This document shows positions 2,102 through 24,270 of a stretch of 26,759 bases of DNA, one piece after another. The first letter of the stretch is position 1; each line of letters begins with the position of its first letter. The DNA is from Bifiguratus adelaidae (lineage: Eukaryota > Mucoromycota > Endogonomycetes > Endogonales). The notes below the pieces were generated by a model. It saw only the letters and a list, made by a program, of their open reading frames with translations. It was not told the origin of the DNA and did no database searches. The position numbers were made by a program, and so were the translations under genes. The stretch is from NCBI GenBank assembly GCA_002261195.1, contig MVBO01000175.1:1-26759 (forward strand), given 5' to 3'.

Positions 2102-3064
2102 CTATGCACTCCCAAAGGCCCTGTTCATCTCTGCAATAGCCAAAGCCGTAGCCTCGTTTTGGGTCTCCTCGTTATAGTCCTCTTCATCCGGAAGGCGATT
2201 AATGAACCCGTGGGTGGATCGAGCATACATGCGGTGTACTACATGCACACCGGCATCACGTAATTGATGCGCGAATTGGTTACCTTCCAAGTACAAACTA
2301 TCCCATTCGGCAGTGAAAATGATCGAGGAGGGTAATTGAGCCAACCAGTCTTGAGCAGCAAAGTTGGGAGAGCACAAGGGCTCAGCGCGCTGTTTCGGCC
2401 GGGTATCGGCAGTCAAGAACAGGTTCATCAATGGCAGAGGAATTGATTTTGCTTGACAATCAGCCGAGACACGTTCAAGCTTTTGCTCGTACGGAGTGGT
2501 AAGGTCGACGACTGGGAATATGGAGCAAAGCATCACAAGTTTCGCGGCGATATCCTTTTCTTGCAAAAACTTGAGAGCCACGGTAAAAGCCAGGTTGCCA
2601 CCAGCGCTGAAACCACCAAGAATCACCTTGTTGAGGTCCAGAGAGAAGAGAGTTGCTCCACCATTGGAGGACGTATCAGCTATCCATCGCAAGACTTCGT
2701 AGCATTGATTCATTGCTGCGGGGTAGGAATGTTCAGGCGCCTTGCAATAGTCTGGAGATATCACGACAGCTCCAGTATTTTCAGAGACAAGACGACACCA
2801 AGCATTGTCCATTTCCGGTTTGAAGATCACCCAGCCACTACCATGCATATGGAGGTGGACGGGATGTTTCGCGTCAGGCTTCCAGTGGGATGGTCTGTAG
2901 ACCAGGATTCGCAACGATCCAGCTTTGGTATTCAATGTCATTTCCTCATAGTCACTACCGCCGTCGGTATGCATGAGTGGATTCATAATTGATCTCCAGT
3001 GTTCCGCTTGAGAAACAATGGGCAATGTAGATTCTCGAGTTTCTTCACTGTGCACGGATGCCAT
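2102..3064 (-). CDS. alpha/beta hydrolase-3 (hormone-sensitive-lipase family), copy 1
   Basis: An intronless 320-aa carboxylester hydrolase with the HSL-type fold. The nucleophile elbow is GFSAGG (Ser153), the acid is Asp255 in EWDSLYLE and the base is His285 in STHGF. The oxyanion-hole motif is HGSG (74-77) instead of the usual HGGG. The family hydrolyses short- to medium-chain acyl esters and some lactones or carbamates; the substrate here is unknown. The frame is open far upstream, but ATG 3064 is chosen because a TATAAAA box sits 42 bp before it and homology with the neighbouring copy begins there. No signal peptide is visible, so it is probably cytosolic. It is the most distal of three same-strand paralogues and resembles copy 2 closely (PDYCKAPEH-type block, RWIADTS, NGGATL). 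Confidence 0.85.
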   Translation of the reverse strand: MASVHSEETRESTLPIVSQAEHWRSIMNPLMHTDGGSDYEEMTLNTKAGSLRILVYRPSHWKPDAKHPVHLHMHGSGWVIFKPEMDNAWCRLVSENTGAVVISPDYCKAPEHSYPAAMNQCYEVLRWIADTSSNGGATLFSLDLNKVILGGFSAGGNLAFTVALKFLQEKDIAAKLVMLCSIFPVVDLTTPYEQKLERVSADCQAKSIPLPLMNLFLTADTRPKQRAEPLCSPNFAAQDWLAQLPSSIIFTAEWDSLYLEGNQFAHQLRDAGVHVVHRMYARSTHGFINRLPDEEDYNEETQNEATALAIAEMNRAFGSA

Positions 3065-3105
3065 GTGTAATGAGATGGTTGAAGATGACAAGGTCTTGAT
3101 CCTCC

Positions 3106-3112
3106 TTTTATA
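3106..3112 (-). promoter_or_regulatory. TATA box of hydrolase copy 1
   Basis: TATAAAA on the minus strand, 42 bp upstream of ATG 3064. It supports that start over the longer open frame. Confidence 0.6.
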
Positions 3113-3560
3113 CCTTGAGCGTGACAAGCCATTGAAGCGCGTTAACCACGGCCAAGATGGGTCAGAGTGATTAAGCAAGAGGTGAATTGCGCTTTGAGCG
3201 ATTATGTTTCCTTTTTGGGCGCGATTGATACTCCAGGAACGGTAGCGGCCGGCAAGTTGTCGCCGTACCGTCAGTGGTATTTTTTCACACCTGCATGACC
3301 CTCGTATCATGATGGCTAGATTGTCCAATATGATCGACATCCTTCCGAGCCCGTTTGTCGCGTCGGAACCATGTAATAGTGGCGAGCCCGAAATTCTCGG
3401 AGGCGAAAGATGATCGACGGGTAAAAGAGAACACGTCCTTCATAAAAATGGGTATCTCTTTAGCAATATAGCAACAAACTAGCAACTATCTTCATGGTAC
3501 ATCCCCGTGTTTACATGCTTTGCATCCTTGACCGTCAAAATAGTACATGCCACAGCAAAA
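3113..3560. other. intergenic, no gene seen
   Basis: About 450 bp between hydrolase copies 1 and 2. Only short frames without protein-like composition are present. It should hold the upstream promoter of copy 1 and the 3' end of copy 2. Confidence 0.6.
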
Positions 3561-4520
3561 TTAGGCAAAGGCTTTCTTGAGCTCCGACATGGACAAGACG
3601 ATCGACGCTTCTTTGGTCTCTGGGTTGTAATCGGGTTGACCAGGTCTCCGATAGGTGAAGCCATGTATCGAATTAGGGTAGAGTTGAAAAACAACATCGA
3701 CCCCAGCTTGACGTAATTGATCCGCAAATTCTTGGGCTTCCACGTAGAGACAATCCAAATCTGCCGCGAGAACCAAGGTTCGTGGAAATTGCGCCAAGTC
3801 TCCGTTGGACGCATATTTGGGGGAGCACAAGGGTTCACCTTCGCGACCCGGTACGGTGTATGCGACATTGTAGAGGTGAGCCATCGGCTCGGGGATGGAT
3901 TTGGTCTGAACATGAGGGGAAACACGTTTCATCTTGTCTGCATAGGGTGTAACAAGATCAATGGCCGGATAGATGGCGTTCAACAAGACAAGTTTCGCCG
4001 AGATGTCCTTGTCTTGAATGAATTTGAGAGCAGTCGTCAAGGTCAGGTTGCCACCAGCGCTGAACCCACCAATGGCCACTTTTTCGGGGTTTAACGAGCA
4101 GAGTGTCGCTCCGCCATCTGCAGAGGTATCTGCAATCCATCGGAGGATCTCGTAGCATTGCTCAAGAGCCTCTGGGTAAGGATGTTCCGGCGCCTTGCAG
4201 TAATCGACCGCGACGACCACACACCCGACCTCGTCTGCCACACGACGACACCAGAAATTGTCCATCTCCGGTCGCCCAATGGTCCAACCACCTCCATGGA
4301 TGTTGTAGTAGACTGGCCAAGGCGCCTTCGCGGTGGAGGTCTCTGGCTTGTACATAAGGAGTCGTACAGGACCCGCTTTGGTATTCAACGGTCGCTCTTC
4401 ATAGGCCCCTCCACCTCCTGTGTATACAGCAGCGTTAGCTAGAGTGCGCCATGTTTTTGCTTGAACGCTGATGGGCAAATAGGATAGGGTGTAAGCGAGG
4501 CCATTGATAAAGGCATCCAT
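3561..4520 (-). CDS. alpha/beta hydrolase-3 (hormone-sensitive-lipase family), copy 2
   Basis: An intronless 319-aa HSL-type hydrolase with a complete catalytic set: oxyanion HGGG (75-78), Ser154 in GFSAGG, Asp256 in DLDCLYVE and His286 in SIHGF. It is clearly the paralogue of copy 1 (shared EMDN.WCR, VDYCKAPEHPYP, LRWIADTS and KFIQDKDI-type blocks), so the pair arose by local duplication. ATG 4520 is preceded 51 bp upstream by a CTATAAGG box. No signal peptide or membrane segment is seen. It presumably hydrolyses esters in the cytosol; the substrate is not predictable from sequence. Confidence 0.87.
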   Translation of the reverse strand: MDAFINGLAYTLSYLPISVQAKTWRTLANAAVYTGGGGAYEERPLNTKAGPVRLLMYKPETSTAKAPWPVYYNIHGGGWTIGRPEMDNFWCRRVADEVGCVVVAVDYCKAPEHPYPEALEQCYEILRWIADTSADGGATLCSLNPEKVAIGGFSAGGNLTLTTALKFIQDKDISAKLVLLNAIYPAIDLVTPYADKMKRVSPHVQTKSIPEPMAHLYNVAYTVPGREGEPLCSPKYASNGDLAQFPRTLVLAADLDCLYVEAQEFADQLRQAGVDVVFQLYPNSIHGFTYRRPGQPDYNPETKEASIVLSMSELKKAFA

Positions 4521-4570
4521 GAGGGTGAAGGTGTGAAAAAGAGGCGCGCGTGCGATGACCTTGACAACTT

Positions 4571-4577
4571 CCTTATA
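4571..4577 (-). promoter_or_regulatory. TATA-like box of hydrolase copy 2
   Basis: TATAAGG on the minus strand, about 50 bp before ATG 4520, mirroring the spacing at copy 1. Confidence 0.45.
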
Positions 4578-4852
4578 GGGAAAAATCCTTTGGTCGGTAA
4601 TCGAGTGACCTTCAACATGACTCTTTTATCCTTTTCGAAGATTGCCGTTCCGACCTGCGCAAACTATCGATTACCTGATGCATCACAGCTGGTGCCATTC
4701 GGAAACCCCTTAGACCTATATCTGTCCCGCGCCTTGGCAGCAGGATAGGGGTATAACATGATGTAAATGTACAACAAACAATGTGATGTACAAGCACAAA
4801 GGGAAGCAAGAGTGATGATGACATCCCTCTGTCCAACAGGCCAAAGATACGG
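4578..4852. other. intergenic, no gene seen
   Basis: Upstream part of the copy 2 promoter and the 3' flank of copy 3. The only frames are short and unconvincing. Confidence 0.55.
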
Positions 4853-5791
4853 CTAACGACCCTCATAGACATCCAATACTTCGCGCACCAGCATCTCAAA
4901 CGCTTCCCGCTTGGCCTCCTCATTGTACCCATATTCATGAGGATTCTTGTGGGTAAAGGCATGAACGGCATCCCTAAATAACCGGTACCGCACCGCAACG
5001 CCTGCGTTTTCCAATGCCGTCTTGAACGCCTCGGTTTCAACCATCAGGGCATCCTTATCGCCCACCATGAGCAAGGTACGTGGAAAGCGGGCCAATAAGG
5101 CTGGGTCCGCCAAGGCGGGTGAGCAGGTGGGATGGATTCGGTCGGCGGGATTGGGACAATAGCATTCGATAAAGAATTGGGCTAGTCGCGTCGATATGGG
5201 ATCATAGCGTGCTTTTGGCGGGGCCTGTGTCATCTTGGTCCAAAAGTCGGTCTGGAGATCTAGTAAAGGATATATGGAAGCCAGCAAGAGAGGCGAAAGA
5301 TCCATGTCCTTGTCTTGTAATAACTTAAGCATGAGAGCCAAGATCAAATTGCCGCCTGCGCTGAAACCACCCATGGCTAAACGTCCATCTAGACTAAGCT
5401 GCGTCGCACCTCCGGTGGGAGAGGTGTCTGACAGCCAGCGGACAACTTCATAAATTTCCTCGAGGGCTGTCGGCCACGGTTTCTCGGGTGCTTTGGCGTA
5501 GGCAACGGATACGACGACTGCACCTGTCCGATCGGCAATGCCGCGACAGAAAAAATTGTCAATGTCGGCAAAACCAAGGATGAACCCACCGCCGTGGAGA
5601 TTGAGGTAGAGCGGATAAGTCGTTTTGGGTGTCGAAGGTGGATAGATGAGAACACGTACGGGTCCGACGCATGTCACGATGGTCTGCACTTTGACAACGC
5701 CAGCGCCATCAGTCCGAAAGAACGGACTAACCAGGGCACGTAACGCTTTCGCTTTGGTCATTCTGGACCATAGCCTACCCATATCCCACAT
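4853..5791 (-). CDS. alpha/beta hydrolase-3 (hormone-sensitive-lipase family), copy 3
   Basis: An intronless 312-aa HSL-type hydrolase, more diverged than copies 1 and 2. Oxyanion HGGG is at 66-69, Ser144 in GFSAGG, Asp247 in GDKDALMVE and His277 in AVHAFTH. The PDYCKAPEH block of the other copies is VAYAKAPEK here. The predicted role is a cytosolic carboxylester hydrolase of unknown substrate. Its ATG lies only 57 bp after the stop codon of the phosphodiesterase gene on the same strand, so its promoter must overlap that gene's 3' end. AT-rich stretches in the gap (GAATATTTCG, CATAAGAC) are the only TATA-like candidates. Confidence 0.85.
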   Translation of the reverse strand: MWDMGRLWSRMTKAKALRALVSPFFRTDGAGVVKVQTIVTCVGPVRVLIYPPSTPKTTYPLYLNLHGGGFILGFADIDNFFCRGIADRTGAVVVSVAYAKAPEKPWPTALEEIYEVVRWLSDTSPTGGATQLSLDGRLAMGGFSAGGNLILALMLKLLQDKDMDLSPLLLASIYPLLDLQTDFWTKMTQAPPKARYDPISTRLAQFFIECYCPNPADRIHPTCSPALADPALLARFPRTLLMVGDKDALMVETEAFKTALENAGVAVRYRLFRDAVHAFTHKNPHEYGYNEEAKREAFEMLVREVLDVYEGR

Positions 5792-5848
5792 GTTGCAAGC
5801 AAAAGAGTCTTATGATTCGAAATATTCTACATCCGATGGCTTTGTCTC

Positions 5849-11219: not shown

Positions 11220-13601
11220 CTAGTCTATGCTAAGTTTAATTGGAGAGTGAACCGTCCGTAGCAAACTCTTGCAAAATTGCTGAACATTCGAGTCTTGTAG
11301 CAACGTCAAAAACATCTTTTGTTTTTGCCCCTTCCAACCCGTATCCGCATCCATGATGTAGCATGTCGGGAACTTGCGGGCTTGCCGCAAAGATTGCAAA
11401 TCCTCACCGTTCGCCAAGGGCAAGTTCCATGGAAAACTCTTTTGATTGAGTCGACGAAAGTACCTCTAGAAAAGTAGCAGTGCTGTGAGCAAGTTTTGCT
11501 TGGCTGACCTGACCCTCATATTGTCCAGGCCATATATATTGGCGACAACCCAGTTGACATCGCACACGATTCGCAAATTGGATAGGAAAATATTGCCTTG
11601 CAGATGATCAAAAAGTTATTCGATAGCGGTCAGAACGTTCTTCGCCGCCACAAGAGAGGTTTGCATGACCTTGTGTTGAAATTGCTCTTGCGCCGAGATG
11701 GGTGAGACCATCAATACGTTGCGGTAGGAAGCGGAAGTGAATGGGTATCCCTCGGATCCAGAATTGACTCAACGCTTCCAGCTCCCCTGTGGTGACGGCA
11801 TTTTGAATCAGCTCCTGTATGGACATGAGTTGCAAAGGAGCATCCGAGTATTCGCTTTCCCCTGGTAGGGGTAATGCCCAATCCAAAAGGTCTGCCTCCA
11901 ACTGTAGGCAAAAGTCGATGGAGCCAAACGTGGGGACATCGAAAACATGCAGTAAGAGCTCGTCGGTGAATGCGTCATCACGCTTGTACCATTTCTTGAC
12001 GAGAACGGTAACGTGATTAAAGCTTTTGATGGAGCAACGCGTCTCTAACGTCTCGTCAGGTAACGCTTCAACGTATGGCAATTTCTGAAAACGAGCCATG
12101 AAATCATCCCCAGACATGATACTGTGAAAGTTCCGCACGACACAGAGCGGTTGAATTGTCGTATTGGATGTTTCGGGTACCTTGTCTGTTTCAGGATTTA
12201 CTCAATTCGCGCCCAGAGGTCTTCCCATGTGATTGAAGCACTTTGGTGCGCTTCATGTGCTAAAAAAAGGAATCAATAGACACTCCGCATGAGACGTGTC
12301 CCCTCCTGGCGTTCCATACTTTCTGCGGTAACAGTAGCTGAATCTCCATCGTTCGCAGATGCAGTCTCTTGATTCGGTTGTATGGCATAGCCGATCCGAA
12401 GCGCGTGACTTGCGTGCCTCATGCTTGACTTTACGCTCTGGGTCATTAGGGACCCCAACCCACGCTCATGTAGTGGGTTCGAAGTCTTTTATTATTATGG
12501 ACCAGAATGGTATGAATCTTGAATGTGTAAAGCGACGCATTGTCGAAGGCGTCGGCGACAACTTCTAAAGAATGAGAAGCATGGAATTCCTTTAGCTCTT
12601 TCACCTCGCCAGGTGAAAACTTGCGTGTGCTGAAGGTATTGAGGCGTTCCACTCTAGAACGATGACCAGTGCACACATCGCCATGATTACGCCGGAATCC
12701 ATGAGGTTGGCTATACTACAGTAATGCTTGCAAAAGCTTCGCTCGTGCATGTAAGATGGTGGACTGAGAGTAACGTACTATGTCACAAGATGTGGCACCC
12801 ATCGATGCGGTTCCAGAGCTTCCATAGTGGGAGCCTGAATGCGGAAATAGCCTGATCGAGTGACTCCGAGACGCATGAAAGTCTCATAATCTTGATTGGT
12901 GAATATGTTTCAATCTTGTCTCGCTCGCAAAACGGTACCGGTGGATTTTGATGGTGCTTTGAGAATAGAGGGATCATGTGGTTGAGTGATGTCTGGCTTG
13001 GTGTAAACTTGCCAGCCTTGAGAGATGAATTGGGACAACTCTTCCAGCTTATGTAGATTGGCCCATATACTCGGTCCTTGACCATTAGGCGAGACGATCC
13101 ACTCGTACAAGCGTTCATCTTTCAGACGAATGGCCATTGATTGGGGCGGCTGAGGTGTGCCGTCAAGTTTTCGTTTCTTCATCACCACACATTCAGGTAA
13201 GAGGAGATTTGCTTTTGCTTTTGCTGCTTGCGTGTTGACTAAGATTTTAATGCCGACCTCCTTGCAATGTATTATGAGGACTGGAAACCCTGGTTGGGGC
13301 CACAGTCTATTGTTGGAGGTTTACCATACGACGTATCGGTGGAGAGATCGGATAGATCGGTATCAAGCGCATACATGGCAGCGTTGAGTTTATTAAATTC
13401 AGCAAAGAGCTTTCGTATATCTGCTTCATTGGCCGTGCGCCTTGTGGTGCAAACTTGAATACATTCTAGGTTATTCCGTACACATCGAGTGCATTTGACA
13501 GGAGATGTATATGTTGAAATTTCGGGCATCAAGCATTTTCGTCGAGCCATGTGACACTGCTCGCATGGAGTTGCTCGCTTTGTGAATTGCCATGTTCCCA
13601 T
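11220..13601 (-). CDS. Zn(II)2Cys6 fungal transcription factor with middle homology region; 3' half unresolved
   Basis: Residues 10-50 carry a fungal binuclear zinc cluster: Cys13, 16, 23, 37, 40 and 47 (CEQCHMARRKC ... CTRCVRNNLEC), a DNA-binding domain for CGG-type sites. Exons 13601-13325, 13238-12939, 12890-12779, 12715-12677, 12629-12503 and 12437-12282 join in frame to 337 aa. They enter the fungal-specific regulatory domain (YFRIQAP, MAITRKFSPGE, DAFDNASLYTFK, ALRIGYAIQ, MERQEGTRLMRS). Continuation at 12180 (VVRNFHSIMSGDDF, KLPYVEALPDE) after a 101-nt intron is tentative. Near 11720-11600 the conserved reading changes frame and meets TAA at 11616-11618. A final exon, 11465-11220, is plausible (RYFRRLNQKSFPW). 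It is either a spliced gene with short unusual introns or a decaying gene. It may regulate the catabolic block that starts 0.5 kb upstream of its start codon. Confidence 0.68.
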
Positions 13602-14059
13602 AGTCGCTCGCTATTTGAGTATGAAAAGAGAACAGTGCGAAGAAAGAGTGGGCTTTATCTTTGCAATCTACATATTTAAGACTAAGAGATATTACTCCGT
13701 CGGAATCCGGATATTACGCAAACATTTCCTGTTTTTGCAGTTCCTAACCATGTATGAACACGAGGTTATTACATGGCTCGCCATTTGTTTGACGAACAAT
13801 GGATTTACTTCGCAGATTTCCATATTAGGTAATTAATTAGCCTGAATAGGCAGAAAGGCGGCGTACGTGCGTTTGTCCGTGGCCGAAGTTTCTCTCAAGT
13901 TACCGTCGATAACGAATCGTTAACGGTGATCGAATAAAGGCTCGCAAGTTGCACGTCTTTGATGTATTTAGCCGCCATTTGTCAGGGGGCCTCTTAATCT
14001 CGGTTATATCTAGCGGAATCCTTTCTCTCGTTTACAGCTACTGACCATCTTTGTGCTGA
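13602..14059. other. intergenic, promoter side of the Zn2Cys6 gene
   Basis: About 460 bp, AT-rich, with no protein-like reading frame on either strand. It separates the transcription factor (minus) from the 3' end of the DUF2264 gene. Confidence 0.55.
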
Positions 14060-15971
14060 TCAATTGCTGCGGCGAACATAATGCTTCACCACCTCTACTT
14101 GCCGACTTTCGTGCCGGAAAATATCTTGTAGCTCATTCACTGTGGGTGCGTCTGGAGGTTGTGACCAGATAGATTTGGCGACCTCTCCGTTAGGATCAGC
14201 TAATACAGCACATGCCAGGACAGTCGGACCTCCCGCTTCCACATCACCTCTCAATTGTGGAACAAACGTTCGTGGGAACATTAAGCTTGTGTTACCATGT
14301 GGAGCGATAACTCTTGCCGAACGTGAAGGCGACGAGAGGTCTACAATGCCGCTAAAGTCACCCAGCGAGCTTTCGACCCACGCTGATCCCGCGTGACTGT
14401 GTGCTTTGTCGGCGTTGAGGTCCGTTCGAGGTGCGGCGAAACCACCTTCAATGGTGGTCAGCAATCTAGGAGACGATATCCTGTGAACTCTTATGTGCCA
14501 TTGCCCACGAGGAATCAACCAGGTTTCAACCTGAACATCAGACCATGGCTTCCAGAGAGAGAAAAGAATATCGTCCGCAATGTGCGCATCAACGCAATGC
14601 TCTCTCACCCGATAGTGCTTTCCATCGTCACTGAGAGCAATCATACTGTCAAAAGTACCAATTTCGAAGCCAAGAGAGTCGCTTTCAACGCTGAAGCCAT
14701 ACCTTGATGAGTAGGCAAACTTCTGGTACTTTTCGGGAACAAATCTCATTGTCTGGCCCGTATCAGGCCCAGCTGTCAGGCCCAGCTGTCAGCATAACTG
14801 TGTGCCCAGGTTGATGAGTGAACACCATGCCGACGGTTGACATCGCGGCAACGGGTGGCCTATCCGACAAAGGGAGTTCCTGTGCACTCCAAAAGGGATG
14901 TGTTGCCGGTAGGATGATGGGCGTGAATGCTTTCATAGCCCACCACGGTGAACCTGTTGAGTTGTAGCGCTCGGCCATGAATTGGTTCGGATACGCATAT
15001 CCAATGGTCAGTATACCATCGTCGAAGCGAGTGATTGGTTGCGAAGCCCACCATCGAAGGTTCCGTAGATACAGTCCCTTTATAACACCCCAAGGTAAAA
15101 CCTCCACATTGGCGAGTGCAAGCGCTCCCCAAAAGCCTGCAACTGCAAGACGATACGTCAGACTGCGACCATAAGGTACGTTGGCACCCGTATCAGCAAA
15201 CCAGTGTTGGAAGTGCAGTGCGAACTTGCGGGCGCGATCCCTAAATCTATCACCTCGCGCCTTATCTCTAGGTCGATAGACGACGTAGATGAGTCCATAG
15301 AAATGCATGGCAAAGGCATTGTAATAATCGATGCGCTGAGTGTCTCCTTCGTCGTCACCATCTCGATACCATCCGTCGTCAATGTATAGACTTTCCAAAT
15401 CTTGCAGATACGCCTCCGTCGTGGATTCATCAACTTGAATTCCCACCTTCTCAAGGCCAAGATCGACCATTACTCTGAAAAACTTGTGATTGTTGCCATG
15501 ATGATCAGAGTTGCGGCTATCCACCAAGTACTTTGCGACATTTTTCTTGGTTGCTTCATCCAATGGATCCCAAATGTGCTCGGGAACAAGCAGCAGTGCG
15601 TAGCCGAGGGCAGCCATCTCTACTTGCCGCTGATCAAAGGAATTCACATCGCCCCAATACTCTGGGTGTGTTGGATCCGTTCCATTCTTCAGCCCCTCAC
15701 GGTACAGGTTCCAATGCGCGAATGGAGCGCCGCCGGCTACCATCGGCGCAATACCAAAGAGGGGCCTCGCAAATCCTTCGAAATCGCACGCTGCACGGTC
15801 ACACGTCGCTCCAGAGGCATCAAACTGTACTCTTGCCTTACCCTTCGAGAAGGCCGGTAACAACGGATTGAAGAGACCGTGAACGGCCTGTATCACATCA
15901 TCACGCGTCTTGAAGTCATTTCCGGCCAATGGATTGAAATGCGTTTGCGGGACGGCGCTAGAATCGATCAT
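14060..15971 (-). pseudogene. DUF2264 protein gene broken by a 13-bp tandem duplication
   Basis: Intronless. The first frame (15971-14763) encodes a DUF2264 protein: NPLAGNDFKTRDDV, FEGFARPLFGIAP, PEYWGDVNSFDQRQVE, HHGNNHKFFRV, GWYRDGDDEGDTQRIDYYN, HFQHWFADTGANVPYGRSLT and PNQFMAERYNSTGSPWW. It then meets TGA immediately after a duplicated 13-mer. The rest of the protein continues in another frame from about 14763 to 14060 (TGQTMRFVPEKYQKFAYSS onward, a beta-rich C-terminal part). Without the extra copy the two halves would read through as one protein of about 630 aa. DUF2264 proteins often sit in polysaccharide-utilisation loci and are thought to act on uronic-acid glycans; I recall but cannot confirm a link to a beta-glucuronidase family. 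No signal peptide. A TATAAAA lies about 60 bp before the ATG. Confidence 0.82.
14764..14789. repeat. 13-bp direct tandem duplication inside DUF2264
   Basis: CAGGCCCAGCTGT occurs twice without a gap (14764-14776 and 14777-14789), followed by CAG. The 13-nt length shifts the frame and creates the early stop. Confidence 0.95.
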
Positions 15972-16031
15972 GATGCAAGTGCTGAAGGTTTGGGAAATTC
16001 CGAGCAGTGCGTGAGGTGCAGCGTGTTGATC

Positions 16032-16038
16032 TTTTATA
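16032..16038 (-). promoter_or_regulatory. TATA box of the DUF2264 gene
   Basis: TATAAAA on the minus strand, about 60 bp upstream of ATG 15971. The 719 bp between this gene and the transporter form a divergent intergenic region that also holds a gene remnant. Confidence 0.5.
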
Positions 16039-16284
16039 AATTTTGAAGTTGAAGCTTAAAATGCAGGCAAGACAGATGACATTTTTCGACGCTGAACTTG
16101 CTCTGGTTAGGTATAGCGGTTACTATGCCAAGTCACGCGTGTACATGAGCGCTCTTTCGGCTTGTAAATGCGGTAAATTTCCATTTGCAGACATTCGTCC
16201 ATGGTCCGAGACATTGTGAAGCGGCTTCGCCGTACTCTGACGACCAGTCCAATACCGCGGATTGCAACGCAAACCCCTGTCGGC

Positions 16285-16630
16285 TCATCTAGGCGTCATC
16301 CCCATTGCCAACATGACGTTGAGCATGAAACCATGGTGGTTTCTGTAGCGAGCACTTCGGCCCACGGTCCGTAAAGGTGTAGCCATTTCTGGAACAAGTT
16401 CCAGTTTGGGAGATATATGCAGGGTCTTCCCTTCTGGGAAATTCCCCACGGGGCGACGCCCATACGCTGGGAAAGGGATGGAGTTTGGATCACGCGATTG
16501 AGCGTTGATCTCACACTGAGCTACATGCGTGGGTAGGCTGGCAAGACGTGAGAGCGCTCGGACTTACCCTAGCTATAGTCAAATTACTGATATTGTCCAA
16601 TTCTACGACAGGTATACTTTGGGTTACTCT
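16285..16630 (-). pseudogene. remnant of an unidentified spliced gene (two exons)
   Basis: I do not recognise the family. On the minus strand an open stretch, 16630-16568 (SIPVVELDNISNLTIAR), ends at a strong GTAAGT donor. A 52-nt intron (16567-16516) ends GCTCAG, and the next exon, 16515-16285, continues in the same phase for 76 codons to TGA. That exon holds IPFPAYGRRPVGNF, LELVPEMATPLRTVG and RNHHGFMLNVMLAMGM. The composition and the exact phase match look coding. There is no start: the frame meets TGA just upstream and then runs into the transporter promoter. It therefore looks like the 3' end of an older gene truncated by arrival or rearrangement of the transporter region. Confidence 0.42.
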
Positions 16631-16690
16631 TCATCTTACATCTCCGACAGCTGAGAGATAAAAAGGTGTCAAGCATGAAAGCCATATTGC

Positions 16691-18323
16691 ATGGTTCCTC
16701 CGTTCCACGTGACCATACATCAAGATTCCCAACCAAGATCAAGAGACATCATGATGCATACCAAGCCTGCTGGCGGTGAAAGCACCATGCTTAGAGATGT
16801 TATACCTAAGCGTGACAAGATGTGGTGGCATTATCCAGCTTTGCGCACGCTGAATTTCCTATTACTATGTGCGATTGTCTGTGATATCACCAACGGCTAT
16901 GACGGATCCATGCTGAGCGGATTGCAAATCCTTAAGAACTGGCAAGGTTACTTTAACCATCCTGCAGGTGCAATCCTGGGTGTCATGAGCAGTGGAACGC
17001 GCTTCGGACAGATTGGATCACTTCTCGTATAAGCATGGCTACTCCGGACGTTTGGACGAAGACGTCCTATCGCAATCGGCTCTGCTATTCTGCTTGTCGG
17101 CGTTGTTCTGCAAGCAGCAGCGACCAATCTGACAATGTTCGTGATCGGACGTGTTCTCATTGGTTTTGGTAATGGTATTCAAATAACGGCGTATCCTGTA
17201 CTGGTTGCTGAATTGGCCTATCCAACACAGCGCACACACATTACTGGCTTCATGAATACAACAGGCTCGCTCGGCTCCCTGATGGCCGCTTGGATCACTT
17301 TCGCAACTGGTACCGCGGCCATCTCACTGACCACCTGGAGCTGGCGCTTACCTAGTCTACTGCAAGCTGTATCGTCTCTCTTGCAATTGACGCTCAGCTT
17401 CTTCGTGCCAGAATCGCCACGTTGGCTAGTCTACAACAACAGGAGGGAAGAAGCCTACCGCCTCCTGGTCAAGTATTACGCTGAAGGCAATGAATCTTCA
17501 CCTCTACTACAATTTGAAATGGCCGAGATTGACAATGCGCTGGAAGCTGAAAAGGCACAGTCGCTTGGTACATGGATGGAGTGGTTCCGAACTCGCGGTA
17601 ACCGATACCGGATTTTCATCGTGCTCACCTCCGGCTTCATAATCCAATGGTGCGGCAACGCATTGATATCCTGCTATATCAAACTCATACTTGATTCCAG
17701 TGGCATCACTGACGCCAAAACGCAATTGCTCATCAATGGAGGCACCAATATCAGTGGGGTTTGCTTCGGTATTTTTTGGTCCTTCTTCATTGAACGCATG
17801 GGTCGTCGTCCGCTGTGCTTGATTGGTATGGCGGGTATGTTTGTCGCTTTCCTCTTGCTTACCATCTTGACCAGCGTCAATCAATCTATTGGCTATTCGA
17901 ATCATGCTATCTCTGGTGCTACAGTAGCGATGATTTTCATCTTTGGTGCCTTCTACAAGATTGCCTGGCCCCATGGTACCCAGCTACATTGCTGAAGTCA
18001 GTCCTTACAATCTGCGTGCCAAGGCTTTCGTCGTCAATGGATTTGGTGATGCAGCTGCTAACGTGTTCAGCAGCTTCGTCAATCCGATTGCCCTTGCCGC
18101 TTTGGGGTGGAAGTACTATATCGTTTGGTGCTGTGTACTGGTCAGCAATTTTACTCTCATCTACTTATTCTTCCCAAAGACAAAGCGACTTTCTCTTGAG
18201 GAAGTCGCAGAGAAATTCGATGGCACGAAGCTCGATCTCAAGATGATGGACGAGGAAAACGCATTCGCCAACGCACCGCCAAGAGAAGTGTATATCCTCG
18301 AGAAGTCAAAAGTGATGGACTGA
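16691..18323 (+). pseudogene. MFS sugar-porter-family transporter, broken by a nonsense codon and a frameshift
   Basis: Intronless. The joined frames read as a 12-helix sugar porter of about 540 aa: FLLLCAIVCDITNGYDGSML (helix 1 with the D-x-x-x-GYD pattern), FGRRRPIAIG, VIGRVLIGFGNGIQ, PESPRWLVYNNR, ERMGRRPL and, in the second frame, VPSYIAEVSPYNLRAKAF and TKRLSLEEVAEKFDG. This type (lactose/uronate/quinate-like permeases of fungi) imports mono- or disaccharides across the plasma membrane. TAA at 17030-17032 interrupts the first half; the same frame resumes at the next codon. At a CCCC run (17969-17972) the frame shifts by one and the original frame stops soon after. Splicing out either lesion would remove conserved motifs. 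A GATAAAAAG box lies about 30 bp before ATG 16691; ATG 16751 is an alternative start. Confidence 0.82.
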
Positions 18324-18649
18324 TACGGCACATTATATTTATCGTCTTCTCCTTTTGACACAGGAGCAATCGTTTCCTCCGTTCTGATAACCTTGTAACT
18401 TTGCGTTCGACGTCTTGTATATATCGTTATATTGGGATTAATGAACAGGGTCGTCATCTATATCATTTCACCTGCTAATGCATACATTTTACGTATGCGG
18501 CGTCTTTGCACACAGTACATGACCGTAAACATGGTAGCAGCATCTAGTGTACCAGAAATAATCCCAGTCCTTAGAACATTACGAGACAAGCAATACTGCC
18601 TGTCTATATTTAAAGTGCAAAGGTATTCATCCACTTTAGAATCCCACAT
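18324..18649. other. convergent 3' flanks of transporter and GH88 genes
   Basis: A 326-bp AT-rich stretch between two convergent genes. No gene seen. Confidence 0.6.
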
Positions 18650-19873
18650 CTATTTCAAAAGGCCCATGTCCAACAAACGGTTTCCTGCCTCGATGAAGTA
18701 ATAGTCGGCATACACCAGTCCGGTATCAGCAATTCGATTAGCATCAGGCGCATCGCGGTTGTTGTTCACGGTACTGTGCTCGAGGATGGTGTCACCATGT
18801 CCGGACGCTCCGGTGATGGCCCGCTTCAGTATCTTGGCAACCTGATCCAGGTATTTGGACGTGGGATCGAGCTGCTGAAGAAGCAGCATACCCGAACAGG
18901 CAATCATGGCGGCAGAGACATCCCAATAGGCAGGTCTCTCAACATCAAAGTCCCAATACACCGTGCCATCCTCGGCAACGCGAGAGCAAAAGTAATCGGC
19001 ATACTTTTTGGCCGCGCCTAGGAACTTGGAGTCCCTTGTGTACTTATAGGTTGTCGCGAACCCGTAAAGTGCCCAAGCTTGTCCCCGGCTCCAGGTACTT
19101 TCGTCAGCGTATCCTTGATGCGTCATCTTTCTCTTGACGGCGCCTGTCTGGGTATCGTAAACTACGAGGTGATAGCTTGAATTGTTGGGTCGAAAGTGGT
19201 TCTTGAGCGTCGTTTCAGCGTGAGTGGTGGCAATGTCTGAAAACTCCTTGTTGTCCGTTCTTTCGGCGGCATAGTACAAGAGCTCGAGGTTCATCATATT
19301 GTCAATGATCACCAAGTAATCCTTGTCTTGGTCGGTGAAGGAGTACCCCTTGCTCACTTGCTGATCCCACGATCGAATCGCCTTGACCTTGGGGCTGTAT
19401 CGGGTAGTCAGAGACTTGGCAGCCTGGATGATGATGTCGAGCGCTTCCTTGTTACCCGTGAGCTCGTAATCGCGTTGAAAGGCTGGCATGATCAGAAACC
19501 CGATGTCATGCGTCTTGGTGTTGTACTGCTGTTCAACGAGTCCAGATTCCCATTTACGCGCCGCTGTCAGTAGCTGTTCTTGCGATACAGGGGCGGTAGC
19601 AGCGTCACCGTTCTTCTTGAGCATCCGCTCATACAAGGCCCACAGGCTTCCAGCGAAGAATCCGGAGGTCCACCTGAACGGCGGCCAGTACACGTAGGTA
19701 TCGGTGCCTGGCAGCGTATAGTGCGGAAAACCTGTCGGAGGTCCTTCTTTGTCCAAGGCTTTCTCAGCTACCCTCCAGATGGTACTATAAATCTTTGGCG
19801 ATAGCACACCGTCTATCTTGAGCCTCTGGACGATCGGTTCGGAGCCGACGGTCTTGTCTGCAGTCGTAGACAT
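18650..19873 (-). CDS. GH88-type unsaturated uronyl (glucuronyl) hydrolase
   Basis: Intronless, intact, 407 aa from ATG 19873 (the open frame continues upstream only from non-ATG codons). It has the (alpha/alpha)6-barrel signatures of unsaturated glucuronyl hydrolases: RWTSGFFAGSLWALYE, THDIGF (Asp123, matching the first essential Asp), IIDNMMNLELL (Asp191, matching the catalytic Asp), DESTWSRGQAWALYGFA and DGTVYWDFDVERPAYWDVSA. The family hydrates the 4,5-double bond of the uronic acid that a lyase leaves at the non-reducing end, releasing it from the oligosaccharide. GH105 is the close alternative. There is no signal peptide, so it should act on imported oligosaccharides in the cytosol. It is divergent from the lyase gene (362 bp between starts), which suggests co-regulation. 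Confidence 0.87.
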   Translation of the reverse strand: MSTTADKTVGSEPIVQRLKIDGVLSPKIYSTIWRVAEKALDKEGPPTGFPHYTLPGTDTYVYWPPFRWTSGFFAGSLWALYERMLKKNGDAATAPVSQEQLLTAARKWESGLVEQQYNTKTHDIGFLIMPAFQRDYELTGNKEALDIIIQAAKSLTTRYSPKVKAIRSWDQQVSKGYSFTDQDKDYLVIIDNMMNLELLYYAAERTDNKEFSDIATTHAETTLKNHFRPNNSSYHLVVYDTQTGAVKRKMTHQGYADESTWSRGQAWALYGFATTYKYTRDSKFLGAAKKYADYFCSRVAEDGTVYWDFDVERPAYWDVSAAMIACSGMLLLQQLDPTSKYLDQVAKILKRAITGASGHGDTILEHSTVNNNRDAPDANRIADTGLVYADYYFIEAGNRLLDMGLLK

Positions 19874-20235
19874 CACGGTCGTCACAAAATATCCTTGTCG
19901 TAGAGTGAACGGGATGCAAAAGGTGAGCAAGAGACAGGTTGGGAGTGTGAGAAAGGAGTTGCTTCGGCTTCGGATCCGAGTTGCTTTCCCTTTTCAGGAA
20001 CTTGTTCCTCTTTCGTCGGCAGCAAGACATGTAAACTGCTTGCGCGCTTCCTGTGTGGGAGAGAGATGGATCGAGTGCCAGAATTTGTCAGACTAGGATT
20101 GGGTATAATGCCTTTTGGAGATTCCCCCGTGGGGAAGCAACTCCGAGGATTCGGGGTAGGAGCCGACGGAGGGAGACATTGGATGTGTCGGCGTTTGCTA
20201 GCAAAGGATCATATTACTCTTATAGTTCACCATGG
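19874..20235. promoter_or_regulatory. shared divergent promoter region of GH88 and polysaccharide lyase
   Basis: A 362-bp region between opposed start codons. It contains two CGG-triplet arrangements of the kind Zn2Cys6 factors bind: CGGATCCG near 19970 and CCG-N6-CGG at 20143-20154. A TATAATG lies at 20104. These are sequence matches only. Confidence 0.4.
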
Positions 20236-21480
20236 ATGTCTCATGGCGCCAAGAAGGGTCAAAAAGAAGCAAAAGCATCATCTCTGCCCCTGATTGACCC
20301 TGAAACCATGGTTCCCACACTCTTCACACTATCACCTTCTTTGCTCGCGTCTACCAAAGAACGGCTCTCAGACCCTCTGATAGCGCCGGCTTACAAGGCT
20401 CTCATCGCTGCCGCAAACAAAGCGCTCAAGTCACCACCCTATTCTGTTACGGACAAGACACTGGTGCCTCCGAGCGGTGACAAACATGACTACATGAGTC
20501 TGGCCCCTTACTGGTGGCCTGACCCGTCCAAGCCTGACGGTCTGCCTTACATTCAACGGGATGGGCAGGTAAACCCAGACTCCAAGACTTCAGCTACCGA
20601 CAGTATCCGCTTCAAAGACTTTGAAGCCGCACTGCAGTCTCTCGCCTTGGCTCACTACTTTACAGATGATGTCAAGTACGCCGAGAAGGCCGTATCGCTG
20701 CTCGATACATGGTTTCTGGATCCAAACACGGTGATGAACCCCCACCTGGAGTATGGTCAAGGCATTCCTGGTCACACCACAGGACGTGGCATTGGATTGA
20801 TTGATACCAGGAATCTCGTCAACGTAGTGGATAGCATTGGGCTTTTGGGCCCAGCGCTCTCCAGTCAACAACAGGCAGGTCTGCGTGATTGGTTTGAACG
20901 CTATCTGGAATGGCTTTTGACGAGCAAGAATGGTAAAGAGGAGGAGGAACAAGGCAACAATCACGGCACCTTCTACGGTTCCCAGGTGGCTGCCATCGCG
21001 CTCTTTCTAGGCAAGACGGATCTAGCCAAAGCCAAGGTCACGAATGCGTTATCACAACGGTTGCCGCATCAATTTGACGCAGAAGGCAAACAAGCTGAAG
21101 AGCTTCGACGCACGCGCGCCTACCATTACAGCGGATTCAATCTCATCGCTTTTATGCGGCTGGCTCATTACGGCAAATCCCTTGGCGTCGATATTTGGCA
21201 CGCTGATCCGTTCGGAACTGGCGAACCATTGCTCGCAACCGCCATCAATTGGTTATCGTCTTTTATTCCGCAACCAGATACCTGGCCATACACTGATCTG
21301 AATGGTGTCAAGGTGCTTCCTTTGGCCAGAGATGGTACTTTACCATTGTATCTGCAAGCAATCTTGGAATATGGCAAGAACCCGTATCTCTCTGCCGCTC
21401 TGGCCATTGCTGCCAAAGAGGAACCCAAAGCGAGGGATTGGTTGCTGTGGCCTGTCATTGCCGAGGAATTGGCCGCTTAA
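20236..21480 (+). CDS. alginate-lyase-superfamily polysaccharide lyase (PF05426 type; PL38/PL5-like)
   Basis: Intronless and intact, about 414 aa. It shows the alginate-lyase (alpha/alpha)-toroid pattern: GDKHDYMSLAPYWWPDP, PYIQRDGQVNPDS, HTTGRGIGLIDTRNL, NNHGTFYGSQVA (Asn/His catalytic pair near 241-243) and RRTRAYHYSGFNL, carrying the Arg and Tyr expected of the N-H-R-Y active site. These enzymes cleave uronic-acid polymers by beta-elimination, leaving an unsaturated end that GH88 can remove. From memory the motif set is nearer the glucuronan-lyase-like PL38 branch than true alginate lyases; this needs a family search. No signal peptide is seen. The start is uncertain: ATG 20236 is preceded 4 nt earlier by an out-of-frame ATG in better context, and ATG 20308 (ACCATGG) would give a 390-aa product. 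Confidence 0.82.
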   Translation: MSHGAKKGQKEAKASSLPLIDPETMVPTLFTLSPSLLASTKERLSDPLIAPAYKALIAAANKALKSPPYSVTDKTLVPPSGDKHDYMSLAPYWWPDPSKPDGLPYIQRDGQVNPDSKTSATDSIRFKDFEAALQSLALAHYFTDDVKYAEKAVSLLDTWFLDPNTVMNPHLEYGQGIPGHTTGRGIGLIDTRNLVNVVDSIGLLGPALSSQQQAGLRDWFERYLEWLLTSKNGKEEEEQGNNHGTFYGSQVAAIALFLGKTDLAKAKVTNALSQRLPHQFDAEGKQAEELRRTRAYHYSGFNLIAFMRLAHYGKSLGVDIWHADPFGTGEPLLATAINWLSSFIPQPDTWPYTDLNGVKVLPLARDGTLPLYLQAILEYGKNPYLSAALAIAAKEEPKARDWLLWPVIAEELAA

Positions 21481-21733
21481 CCATGCCCCTTGGGTGTTTT
21501 CGAGCGACGCCCATAGAATCCTCGCAAAGCTACTTTGGATTGATTGTAGCTAAAGCTACAATGCTGGCACTCCAAAGACAAATGTATGTACGAAAGGTTG
21601 TCTTGTATAAGAGCAAATAAATGAATGTCTGCATATACATCGCTCTAGCAACTGGGTGAACATGCTCTGTGTACGCGTTTTCGTCACCACCAACACTGGT
21701 TGAAAATAGAGGTGTCAAGTGCTCTCGAGTTCA

Positions 21734-22652
21734 TTACTCAAGGTTCATGAAATGGATTCCACGTTGCGCGTGAAAAGTCTTGACCTTGTCCCGAGCAACA
21801 CCTCGACCTTCCGCAAAGACCACTCGGCATTTACAAAAAGGTTTATTTCGCATCTTGCATCAAGGTTTGTTAAGGGCCTCCACGCTCCAGACAACACGTT
21901 GAACCGGTCAATGGATCACCGACTCTCTGCGATATAGGCCAATTGAGTGTAGGTCCCTGTATCGCCAACTGTATACAAAATCTTGTTGATGTGTCCTCGG
22001 AGAAAACAATTTCTGCCGTCAAAGTACCAATTTCTTCTGGCGTCCTGACAGTCATCGCGTTATCCCAGGACCCTAACGCATGCACCGTGTTGATGCTTCT
22101 CACGTCCACGATATCAAGAAGGGGCTCAAAGGGACAGCTCGTAAAGACGCCGGTAGGAAACAATGGCCCAAGCGGTGCGATCGTGCCGACGTAACGGAGC
22201 TGACGCACATCCAATTGTTCATCGAACATTATTTAGCCGATCCTCGTCCAATCATATCGAAATTCCACACAAAAATGCCAAGGAACGTAGCGTTGAATAC
22301 CTGCTTCCGAGACAGCGCGTGTAATCTTGAGTTTGAATACGGCTCCAGTCACGAATCACGTGCATCCAATCACAATGGGAAAGAGTGAGAAGAGTATTGA
22401 CAACTCTTTGACAGAAGTGATCACGAGATCACCAGGAAGAAGAGAGTCAACCAGTCGTCGTAGCTCTTCCACTTGCTTTGACGTTTGGGGTCCGTAGGAC
22501 GTAATTGTGGCCGGGACGAAGAAGGATCGCGATCGATGTATAGGCTGGTCCTTTCTTGACCAGTCCGCGAAGCATTTGCATGCCCAATTCACGTGCACCA
22601 AGGACGAGGATAACGTTTGGGGGCGCTGATGGATGGGACTAGCAATCGCCAT
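21734..22652 (-). pseudogene. NmrA-like/isoflavone-reductase-type NAD(P)-binding protein, heavily decayed
   Basis: Protein similarity is spread over all three minus frames across 919 bp, the length of a normal family member of about 305 aa. In order: ATG 22652; PPNVILVLGARELGMQML with LRGLVKKGPAY (Rossmann strand and GxxGxG-like region); ITSYGPQTSKQVEELRRL and SLLPGDLV; PIVIGCT, then TGA at 22356-22358; FVTGA, AVSEAGIQRYVPW; a TAA at 22233-22235 with frame changes; FDEQLDVRQL; TGVFTS, FEPLLDIVDVRS, VHALGSWDNAM, PEEIGTLTAEIVF; then other frames give YTVGDTGTYTQLAYIAES, RVVWSVEAL and RVVFAEGRGVARDKVKTF, ending near 21734. I count at least five frame changes and two or more stops, so no functional protein is expected. 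The family binds NAD(P)H and acts as redox sensor or reductase. Confidence 0.82.
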
Positions 22653-22729
22653 GGCGCTCCGTTGCTCACCTCTTATACGCGATGGTGCCCCATTTCGTTG
22701 TTTGGGTGCATTGTTCCCCATTTGCCAGC

Positions 22730-22977
22730 ATGGCGCGTAGGTAACCCCAATGAGGAAATTTTGAACGCTTGAATGCTAAGTCAACCGCAAGCCATCCTTC
22801 AACGCGGACCAAACTCGTCAGGGTTTAATCGACTGGCTTGTACGACCATGTTACTACCCCCTTGGGCCTGGATTCGATCCCCCGAGGACGGGGACCGTCG
22901 ATCAAGTACGTCCGGGTTCTGACACGTGGTACCGGCATGACTTCTACGCCAGGGATATGCGGGTCGTTAAGTGGTAA
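22730..22977 (+). CDS. small 67-aa protein gene with a 7-nt first coding exon
   Basis: Unidentified. ATG 22730 starts a 7-nt exon (22730-22736), followed by a 44-nt intron with GTAGGT donor and GCTAAG acceptor (22737-22780). Exon 2 runs 22781-22977 to TAA. The 67-aa product is strikingly protein-like: NRKPSFNADQTRQGLIDWL, YYPLGPGFDPPRTGTVDQV and DTWYRHDFYARDMRVVKW. It has no clear signal peptide or membrane helix. The basic, aromatic C-terminus recalls small accessory subunits of mitochondrial complexes, but I cannot name one. It is divergent from the NmrA-like pseudogene, 77 bp between starts. If the intron is wrong, the open frame 22780-22977 would be a remnant instead. Confidence 0.48.
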
Positions 22978-23215
22978 CTGCTTTCGTCAGAATCCCGCCC
23001 TGTACGGTATTGTCCGCTATGCATATAGCATTTTTGACCCCTTACACAAAATTCTCGTTATGTTTAGCCTTAGCCAGTATGCACAACTAGATCATCGTGA
23101 ATCCCGAGGCTAAATTACAAACAATATTCTTACGGGTAAAAGATTCAAAGGCACAGAAACAGTAAAGATGGCGTCCATAGAGCAACGGCTTCTACAAAGT
23201 TCTGTGACGATGAGC

Positions 23216-24270
23216 TTACACGGTGGTTTTATAGCTTTGGCGTTGCCCAGTCGCTGCACTCTTCTCTACGGCATCCAAGAACCGTTTTCTAATCATGCCC
23301 GTTTCAAAAGTGGGATAATCCACACCAGGTTGCCCCGTCGCAAATCTATCCCATGCTCTGCCAATGTTGGTGTGATAGGCATTGGTCAGACACGGGATGG
23401 TTTCGGTGACCTTGACGGAACCGTCCTCGTCAATCTGCTCAAGGACGACTTCGGTGTCGTAAATGTGTATGGCCCCATTGGTTGGATTGCGTAGTGTGAT
23501 CCTGCCCTTTTCGCTTTGAATCGTCCACAAGGCGCTTGTGCCCATCAAGTTCGAGGTCAGATCGGAGCCGATATGTATCGAAGCAGCTGCTCCCGATTCC
23601 AATGTACCTTGAATCAAGATTTGGTCCGGAATGTCTTTGGCCACGGTATTCGGTAGTGCGCCAGAGCTGGCATTGAGCGATGCAAACTCTCCCAAGACGG
23701 TGGAGAAACATTCCATGAGATGGCCACCGTACACCTCCAACATACCCGCTCCGTTCTTCTTGAGCAAGTGGTAGGTCCCCACAATGTAGCTGTGGAATTG
23801 AGTTCGGTATAAAAGACCCGCCCAATGGCTCCATCCTGAACAAGTTGCTTGGTCGTTTGAACCGCAGACGCCTGACGTCCTTGCAGGCCAATCATGGTCT
23901 TGACTCCCTTGGCACGAGCGAGTGCAGCAAGCTCTTCGGATTCCGCCAATCCATTGCCAAAGCACCACTCGACAAACACCGACTTGCCGGCTTCAAGGAT
24001 GGGCTTGGCCACCGCATAATGTTGTGGCGTCTTGACCGAGACAACAACGAGGTCGACGTTGGCGTCCGCTGCCAGCGATTCAGGCGACCCATGTGCACTA
24101 GTCGTAGGCGGAAGCTTGCACACCTTGATCGCTTCTAGCGTTGATCCAGCCAGTGCTGTGACGGTGTACTTGGCCCGGCCAGCAGCCGACAAAAAGTAGG
24201 GCAAGTGACTAACGACAGCCCAAGAGCCTTTGCCAGAGAATCCAAGCAGACCTACGCGAATGGTTTGCAT
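23216..24270 (-). pseudogene. Gal80-like Gfo/Idh/MocA-family protein, frameshifted
   Basis: Intronless. The first frame from ATG 24270 gives RVGLLGFSGKGSWAVVSHLP (Rossmann glycine-rich turn), ANVDLVVVSVKTPQHY, LEAGKSVFVEWCFG, AKGVKTMIGLQGRQAS and GAIGRVFYTELNST up to LWGP (residue 166). It then runs into unlike sequence. The true C-terminal domain resumes in the next frame at about 23773 (YHLLKKNGAGMLEVYGGHL, IPDQILIQGTLESGAAASI, GRITLRNPTNGAIHIYD) and ends at 23216. The net shift is minus one, perhaps within a slightly larger deletion. The E-W-C-F segment lacks the Lys of active oxidoreductases (EKP), as in yeast Gal80, whose VEW and ISLQGR blocks it resembles. An intact version would more likely be a ligand-sensing co-regulator than a dehydrogenase. 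Confidence 0.8.

Follow-up and report, generated by a model that had tools for sequence, protein, structure and literature searches.

Probable piecemeal gene loss at a uronate-catabolism locus with paralogs in the same genome in the fungus Bifiguratus adelaidae

Introduction

How a fungal catabolic gene cluster comes apart is the question raised by contig C85 of Bifiguratus adelaidae (Mucoromycotina, Endogonales), the whole of which (26,759 bases; hereafter the window) was analysed. Within it, the genes for a DUF2264 protein, a major facilitator superfamily (MFS) sugar transporter, an NmrA-like protein and a Gal80-like protein are damaged, while those for a GH88 unsaturated glucuronyl hydrolase and an alginate-lyase-family lyase are open. 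A first-pass annotation had taken this for a polyuronide-type catabolic block losing uptake and regulation before its enzymes, and had considered it informative about how such clusters die. The uronate-type character of the block is borne out by the gene families found and decay is seen, but C85 is one of several paralogous loci, and hence bears on how spare copies die. We consider it likely that B. adelaidae has several paralogous loci for uronate catabolism, C85 among them, that are losing genes piecemeal through redundancy; the decay is with good probability real, and young for most of the genes. The locus would thus show gene loss in progress in a fungal catabolic system, and since each family is represented in one genome by both open and broken copies, the order and cause of loss become testable by strain comparison.

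All lesion calls derive from one assembly (18,628,366 bases in 286 contigs) of one strain. Specific expansions of carbohydrate-active enzymes have been reported for B. adelaidae in the accessible part of PMC8778642. Among the literature on fungal cluster decay no title pointed to the C85 cluster, and searches on DUF2264 alone and on Gal80-like proteins in filamentous fungi likewise returned no match.

Damaged and open genes of the C85 locus

The four damaged genes lie where the first-pass annotation had placed them (Table 1) and are disrupted by a 13-bp duplication (DUF2264), an in-frame TAA and a frameshift (transporter), a 22-bp loss (Gal80-like) and multiple breaks (NmrA-like). The GH88 and lyase genes are open as it had stated, in frames spanning 18650-19993 and 20035-21480, respectively, with Pfam domains above cut-off and start codons placed by eye.

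Table 1. Coordinates of the features of the C85 locus and of the adjoining regulator-like gene
Feature	Position	Strand	Evidence
Zn(2)-Cys(6)-type N-terminus, weak	13272..13610	-	PF00172 E 5e-4, 20.5 bits, just under cut-off 21
DUF2264 C-terminal domain, other frame	14060..14788	-	PF20938 E 1.9e-42; 66% / 73% identity to intact C197 / C68 copies
13-bp perfect tandem duplication	14763..14788		Shifts the DUF2264 frame within the linker between two domains
DUF2264 catalytic-domain frame, 402 aa	14766..15971	-	PF10022 1-352 of 353, 416 bits; 77% identity to intact C197 copy
MFS sugar transporter, broken	16679..18323	+	PF00083 in pieces; 70-72% identity to P0122/P0123
GH88 unsaturated glucuronyl hydrolase, open	18650..19873	-	PF07470; 77% identity to P0002
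Alginate-lyase-family (PL38-like) lyase, open	20308..21480	+	PF05426 1-275 of 275, E 1.4e-82
NmrA-like wreck	21870..22775	-	Several frame changes, two in-frame stops (three-frame reading)
Gal80-like (Gfo/Idh/MocA-fold), broken	23219..24270	-	Frame change ~23776-23779

In the transporter gene, the TAA (17030-17032) interrupts continuous homology and a shift of 1-2 nt follows at ~17958-17971; relatives (P0122-P0126) comprise 505-522 amino acids. A public model of this gene (P0121; BZG36_04982; 371 amino acids; window 17135-18323) begins past the TAA and skips pieces, and looks like an annotation artefact, a patched pseudogene. The Gal80-like gene shows a net 22-bp loss, calculated from codon positions, relative to an intact Gal80-like public protein of the same species (P0241; BZG36_05465; public contig of 8,936 bases), along with in-frame losses of four and 18 residues (12 and 54 bp). 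Its two halves share 85% and 82% identity with P0241 in the genome search, and 84% and 75% by tblastn. P0241 itself represents a further intact copy; a search of the assembly with it gave the broken C85 gene as the top hit and found no intact equivalent, so that at least one public contig seems to be missing from this assembly.

The NmrA-like wreck was assigned to its family by paralog alignment, because the Pfam NmrA profile search of the genome did not recover this stretch. The paralog L059, whose 318-aa frame matches Pfam NmrA, aligns by tblastn at 25% identity over 176 positions and through both stops (E 6e-8 with only the 951-bp stretch as target), and a second paralog (L058) matches the wreck at E 7.5e-5. 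Neither open piece had a Pfam match; one was also negative against the PDB, and the other, searched against the genome, returned only itself. Nothing shows a role for this gene as a regulator. In the transporter, Gal80-like and NmrA-like genes alike, homology continues across the lesions with no intron to explain them, which marks the three as probable pseudogenes.

The DUF2264 gene is split into two overlapping frames on the minus strand (14763-16055 and 14060-14788), the first of which, a 430-aa frame, contains PF10022. The duplication that separates them falls in a linker of ~112 bp (5.9% of the gene), past the complete catalytic domain. A scan of 126,759 bases for tandem duplications that are perfect and have a unit length of 9-30 bp returned 11, against a mean of 0.2 in five shuffles. 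Only two of the 11 have units that are not a multiple of three, namely the 13-bp duplication of C85 and one of 10 bp within the broken DUF2264 gene of contig C203.

Of the open genes, GH88 encodes a protein matching GH88 structures (E 1e-41 to 7e-57) and carrying both HDIGF and IIDNMMN, which we take to be the catalytic-Asp motifs of the family. The lyase matches PDB entries 3nfv (E 1.6e-82) and 8bdq (E 1e-52), the latter presumably a PL38 enzyme, over most of its length and shares an NNHG stretch with both; no obvious signal peptide was seen by eye. PL38 alginate lyases receive a mention, without further detail, in the accessible text of PMC11381880.

Paralogous loci in the assembly

Copies of the same gene families occur elsewhere in the genome, and several are also damaged. 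DUF2264 genes are present at four loci, intact in C197 and C68, split in C85 and broken in C203, so that two of the four are damaged. The C203 copy (L009; 3611-5523) has accumulated five lesions, comprising a nonsense codon, losses of 16 and 17 bp and gains of 1 and 10 bp, the last being the tandem duplication mentioned above. Codon changes on its branch (40:12 synonymous to nonsynonymous) look constrained despite these lesions, with no excess of nonsynonymous change relative to 37:17, the lesions having outpaced substitution. Among five clear Gal80-like loci, only that of C197 is open, while those of C85, C198 (L025; 1441-1889), C234 (L034; 1501-2702) and C67 (L040; 1501-1662) are broken; a sixth, weak hit on C5 (E 6e-5) is not counted. 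The first 278 residues of the C198 remnant are without a match in the 1,440 bases upstream.

GH88 genes are found at eight loci, six of them open, one broken (C159) and one in short pieces (C146), the last excluded from the seven regarded as resolved. The HD-G motif is present in the open copies of C85, C197, C198 and C113, was not found by pattern in C112, and has an Asn in C247. The C247 copy (L030; 6399-7658) reads HNLGL instead of HDIGF in an otherwise open frame, and may as such be dead without a frame lesion.

Contig C197, read over 10,000 of its 10,555 bases, has three genes from these families open beside a transporter ghost (L008; 3617-3756), in which 44 residues of an N-terminus are spread over three frames between the open GH88 and Gal80-like genes. 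C198 combines a transporter with one intron-like gap (an in-phase GT-AG candidate), an open GH88 gene and the broken Gal80-like remnant. A lyase copy at C198:67072 showed stops in the family search and was considered as a further broken gene, but its gaps appear intron-like by eye and it was not counted. The C197/C198 and C68/C203 gene pairs share 79-82% nucleotide identity, with 72% over a 144-bp match at the ghost, while identity to the window copies is 57-62% for the GH88 and 67-77% for the DUF2264 paralogs. Outside B. adelaidae, relatives of the GH88 and transporter genes both lie on a contig of 578,348 bases in Umbelopsis sp. PMI_123, which suggests that the two may be linked there.

The damaged sister copies in C203, C198, C234, C67 and C159, together with the ghost in C197, argue for a piecemeal decay of redundant copies, and this is further favoured by the persistence of open copies of each family elsewhere. 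Several points weigh against it. The transporter shift, its TAA and the 13-bp duplication could each be assembly errors, tandem duplication being a known kind of gap-closing artefact, and the absence of excess change described below fits errors too. Internal stops occur in nine of 49 transporter matches, three of them at the loci read here, and breakage may be part of a wider background among transporters. Furthermore, the paralogs may act on other substrates, given their identities to the window copies, and redundancy is put forward as the cause from the presence of sequence copies.

A putative uronate route and its known counterparts

The DUF2264 gene is, by homology, an enzyme gene of the pathway, encoding a relative of the 'GH154' β-D-glucuronate dehydratases. 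The intact C197 protein matches the β-D-glucuronic acid dehydratase structures 9o4u and 9nwf, as well as the related 8oi4 (deposited as a β-galactosidase), and the catalytic domains of the C197 and window copies match 9o4u at E 3e-26 and 4e-25, respectively. Nine of the ten active-site residues mutated in the dehydratase BcGDH are identical in both copies, while the tenth, W178, is His in both; residues were mapped by eye on the HMMER alignment (published numbering equals chain position plus five) and carried from C197 to the window by tblastn. One motif string was not found in the window, where a flanking residue differs. According to the accessible text of PMC12269599, BcGDH primes saturated non-reducing glucuronic acid (GlcA) for GH88, and the 'GH154' family is argued to consist of dehydratases.

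In the form suggested by these families, the MFS transporter would import uronate-containing oligosaccharides, which the lyase would cleave inside the cell; the DUF2264 dehydratase would act on saturated GlcA at non-reducing ends and make it 4,5-unsaturated, GH88 would then remove the unsaturated uronate, and the Gal80-type protein may regulate the cluster. At C85 the transporter and Gal80-like genes would now be young pseudogenes and the NmrA-like gene an old wreck, while DUF2264 would lack its C-terminal domain. One plausible candidate substrate is a zygomycete polymer resembling glucuronan, either of the wall or extracellular; zygomycete walls do contain polymers of glucuronic acid, and polyuronides and β-1,4-linked GlcA polymers of Mucorales are noted in the available part of PMC6433966.

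Parts of this route have counterparts in known systems. In the PUL25 of Bacteroides caccae, as far as the accessible text of PMC12269599 describes it, a lyase, a GH88 enzyme and a dehydratase are likewise adjacent and the dehydratase primes GlcA for GH88, but that system is bacterial, employs a PL35 lyase where C85 has a PL38-like one, and no Gal80-type gene is named in that text. The intact fungal dehydratases are two-domain proteins like BT3677, which the same text covers, unlike the BcGDH of PUL25. Yeast GAL80 is the best solved relative of both Gal80-like paralogs examined, that of C197 (E 1e-48, versus 2e-14 for the best non-GAL80 oxidoreductase) and P0241 (4.5e-30 versus 5.6e-13), but the proteins of this zygomycete, characterized here from sequence, are encoded beside uronate genes. 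These matches point to a uronate route in fungi that combines a GH154-type dehydratase, GH88 and a protein of the Gal80 clade.

The type of event is known, the closest case being the GAL genes of Saccharomyces kudriavzevii, all of which are pseudogenes in one strain and not in another (Hittinger 2004, 2010, as cited in the accessible part of PMC3276118). As in that yeast, several genes of one sugar-catabolic network are broken by separate lesions, three being broken and one truncated at C85. At C85, however, the damage affects just some genes of a physical cluster and the genome retains paralogous loci, with the locus being known from one strain. The system and the multi-locus setting are new.

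A single-domain dehydratase as an alternative

The best-surviving alternative is that the DUF2264 gene has undergone domain truncation instead of decay, such that the 402-aa frame encodes a functional dehydratase with a single domain and C85 retains a set of three enzymes (dehydratase, GH88 and lyase) with uptake provided from another locus. We regard this as possible, although less probable than piecemeal decay. The lesion is confined to the linker, and the remaining frame covers nearly all of PF10022 and aligns with the single-domain enzymes of PDB entries 8oi4 and 9o4u (residues 35-363 to 17-366 of 398 in 8oi4). Because this alignment extends over most of the single-domain enzymes, residual activity is conceivable and the frame is perhaps still active. 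The active-site residues are also kept, the exception (W178) being changed in the intact C197 copy as well. Nonetheless, both intact copies in the assembly (C197 and C68) have two domains, and in BT3677 the second domain adds side chains near the active site (PMC12269599, accessible text). The C-terminal domain is not significantly freer to change than the N-terminal domain on the window branch (30:12 versus 59:13; Fisher 0.24), and for the 402-aa frame the quality of a single-sequence AlphaFold2 model was too low for a judgement (predicted local distance difference test, pLDDT, 44.2).

A somewhat remoter prospect is that decay has led to a division of labour, with each paralogous cluster missing parts that others retain and a single functional pathway now distributed over unlinked loci. 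Were this so, the repeated loss of the Gal80-type gene may leave the surviving enzymes constitutively expressed, and the C85 dehydratase, truncated by a frameshift, would represent a new form with one domain.

Age and order of the lesions

Rates of non-synonymous and synonymous substitution (dN/dS) were approximated by branch-specific codon changes among paralogs of the same genome. The ratio of synonymous to nonsynonymous changes on the window branch of DUF2264 (89:25) is close to those of the intact reference branches, C197 and C68 (81:22 and 81:24). A rough model that sets nonsynonymous change at 22% before gene death and, by assumption, at 75% thereafter makes it unlikely that at least 15% of this branch follows the lesion (P 0.036). 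The halves of the broken Gal80-like protein share 81.1% and 71.4% identity with P0242, from which the intact P0241 is equally far (81.1% and 72.4%), and private changes number 6 of 119 columns in the window copy versus 9 of 122 in P0241. The broken transporter has private changes at eight of 127 columns that are invariant in ten other sequences, the second highest count of 11 (range of the other ten: 0 of 119 to 12 of 131), but no significant excess over its relatives was evident in two comparisons (Fisher 0.49 and 0.57). For the open GH88 gene the ratio is 32:8 or 40:5 with C247 among the two references, and 67:71 with C197 and C198, where older divergence is counted too as these two are close to each other.

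Codon constraint does not, therefore, separate the open from the broken genes, and the comparison of rates between GH88 and the broken genes, which the first-pass annotation had proposed as a check, yields no such separation in this approximation. As the DUF2264, Gal80-like and transporter genes are without significant excess change, no order of loss can be read: the lesions are too young to order, with the exception of those of the NmrA-like wreck, which by its number of breaks is the only clearly old lesion set. The proposed loss of uptake and regulation ahead of the enzymes is also not supported in that DUF2264 is itself an enzyme gene, although its lesion leaves the catalytic domain complete.

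A directional loss, whether selected or merely tolerated, of uptake and the Gal80-type regulator before the enzymes is accordingly unlikely. In its favour, Gal80-like genes are broken at four of five loci against one of seven resolved loci for GH88, but this contrast is not significant (Fisher 0.07, or 0.10 when the public intact copy is included). C197 retains its Gal80-like gene beside a mere ghost of the transporter, C203 harbors a broken enzyme gene, and the GH88 frame of C247 is open, yet the motif Asp shared by C85, C197, C198 and C113 is replaced there by Asn.

Assembly errors, introns and recoding

An origin of most lesions in assembly or sequencing error, with the genes being intact in the organism, is about as improbable as a directional loss. 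A single assembly lies behind all calls, and the window branches of the DUF2264 and Gal80-like genes are as constrained as those of intact copies, as is the C203 branch with its five lesions. The first-pass annotation had judged sequencing error unlikely as a general cause and this holds, as the lesions are varied, and those of 10-54 bp and the nonsense codons do not resemble the spectrum of homopolymer errors. Moreover, read errors are an unlikely source of the NmrA-like wreck, the C198 Gal80-like remnant and the broken copies of C159 and C234, and three genes from the families of the block are open in C197.

As intron controls, three transporter loci with interrupted matches were read. In-phase GT-AG candidates were present in all six frame gaps tested at the three loci, several with GTAAGT donors, with sizes of 41-67 nt for four gaps and of 85-142 and 44-77 nt for two more in C127. 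The homologous blocks flanking the window breaks, in contrast, adjoin to within a few bp or overlap. Restoration of the proteins by programmed recoding or by introns of an unusual kind is thus highly improbable, as there is no room for an intron of the control type (shortest control candidate: 41 nt) and three genes would each need a different signal, the patched public transporter model being the sole hint of such a rescue.

Neighbouring genes

The housekeeping genes around the block had been described as undamaged, which is upheld for three tandem esterase genes (Abhydrolase_3, α/β-hydrolase; window 2102-5809), all of which are open, and for the visible part of a urease gene, whose single frame gap has GT-AG candidates of 40-49 nt. 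It may not extend to a Zn2Cys6-type regulator gene adjoining DUF2264, absent from the original list, which may be damaged. The N-terminal stretch of this gene in Table 1 is the first piece of a region extending to ~11.6 kb, where three-frame reading reveals stops and frame changes, with introns as an alternative. Four pieces of the region yielded no tblastn match against eight other loci.

An Abhydrolase_3 copy on contig C230 (L065; 542-867) is broken by stops and a frame change too tight for an intron, and because this esterase copy is broken too, the decay of duplicates extends beyond the uronate pathway.

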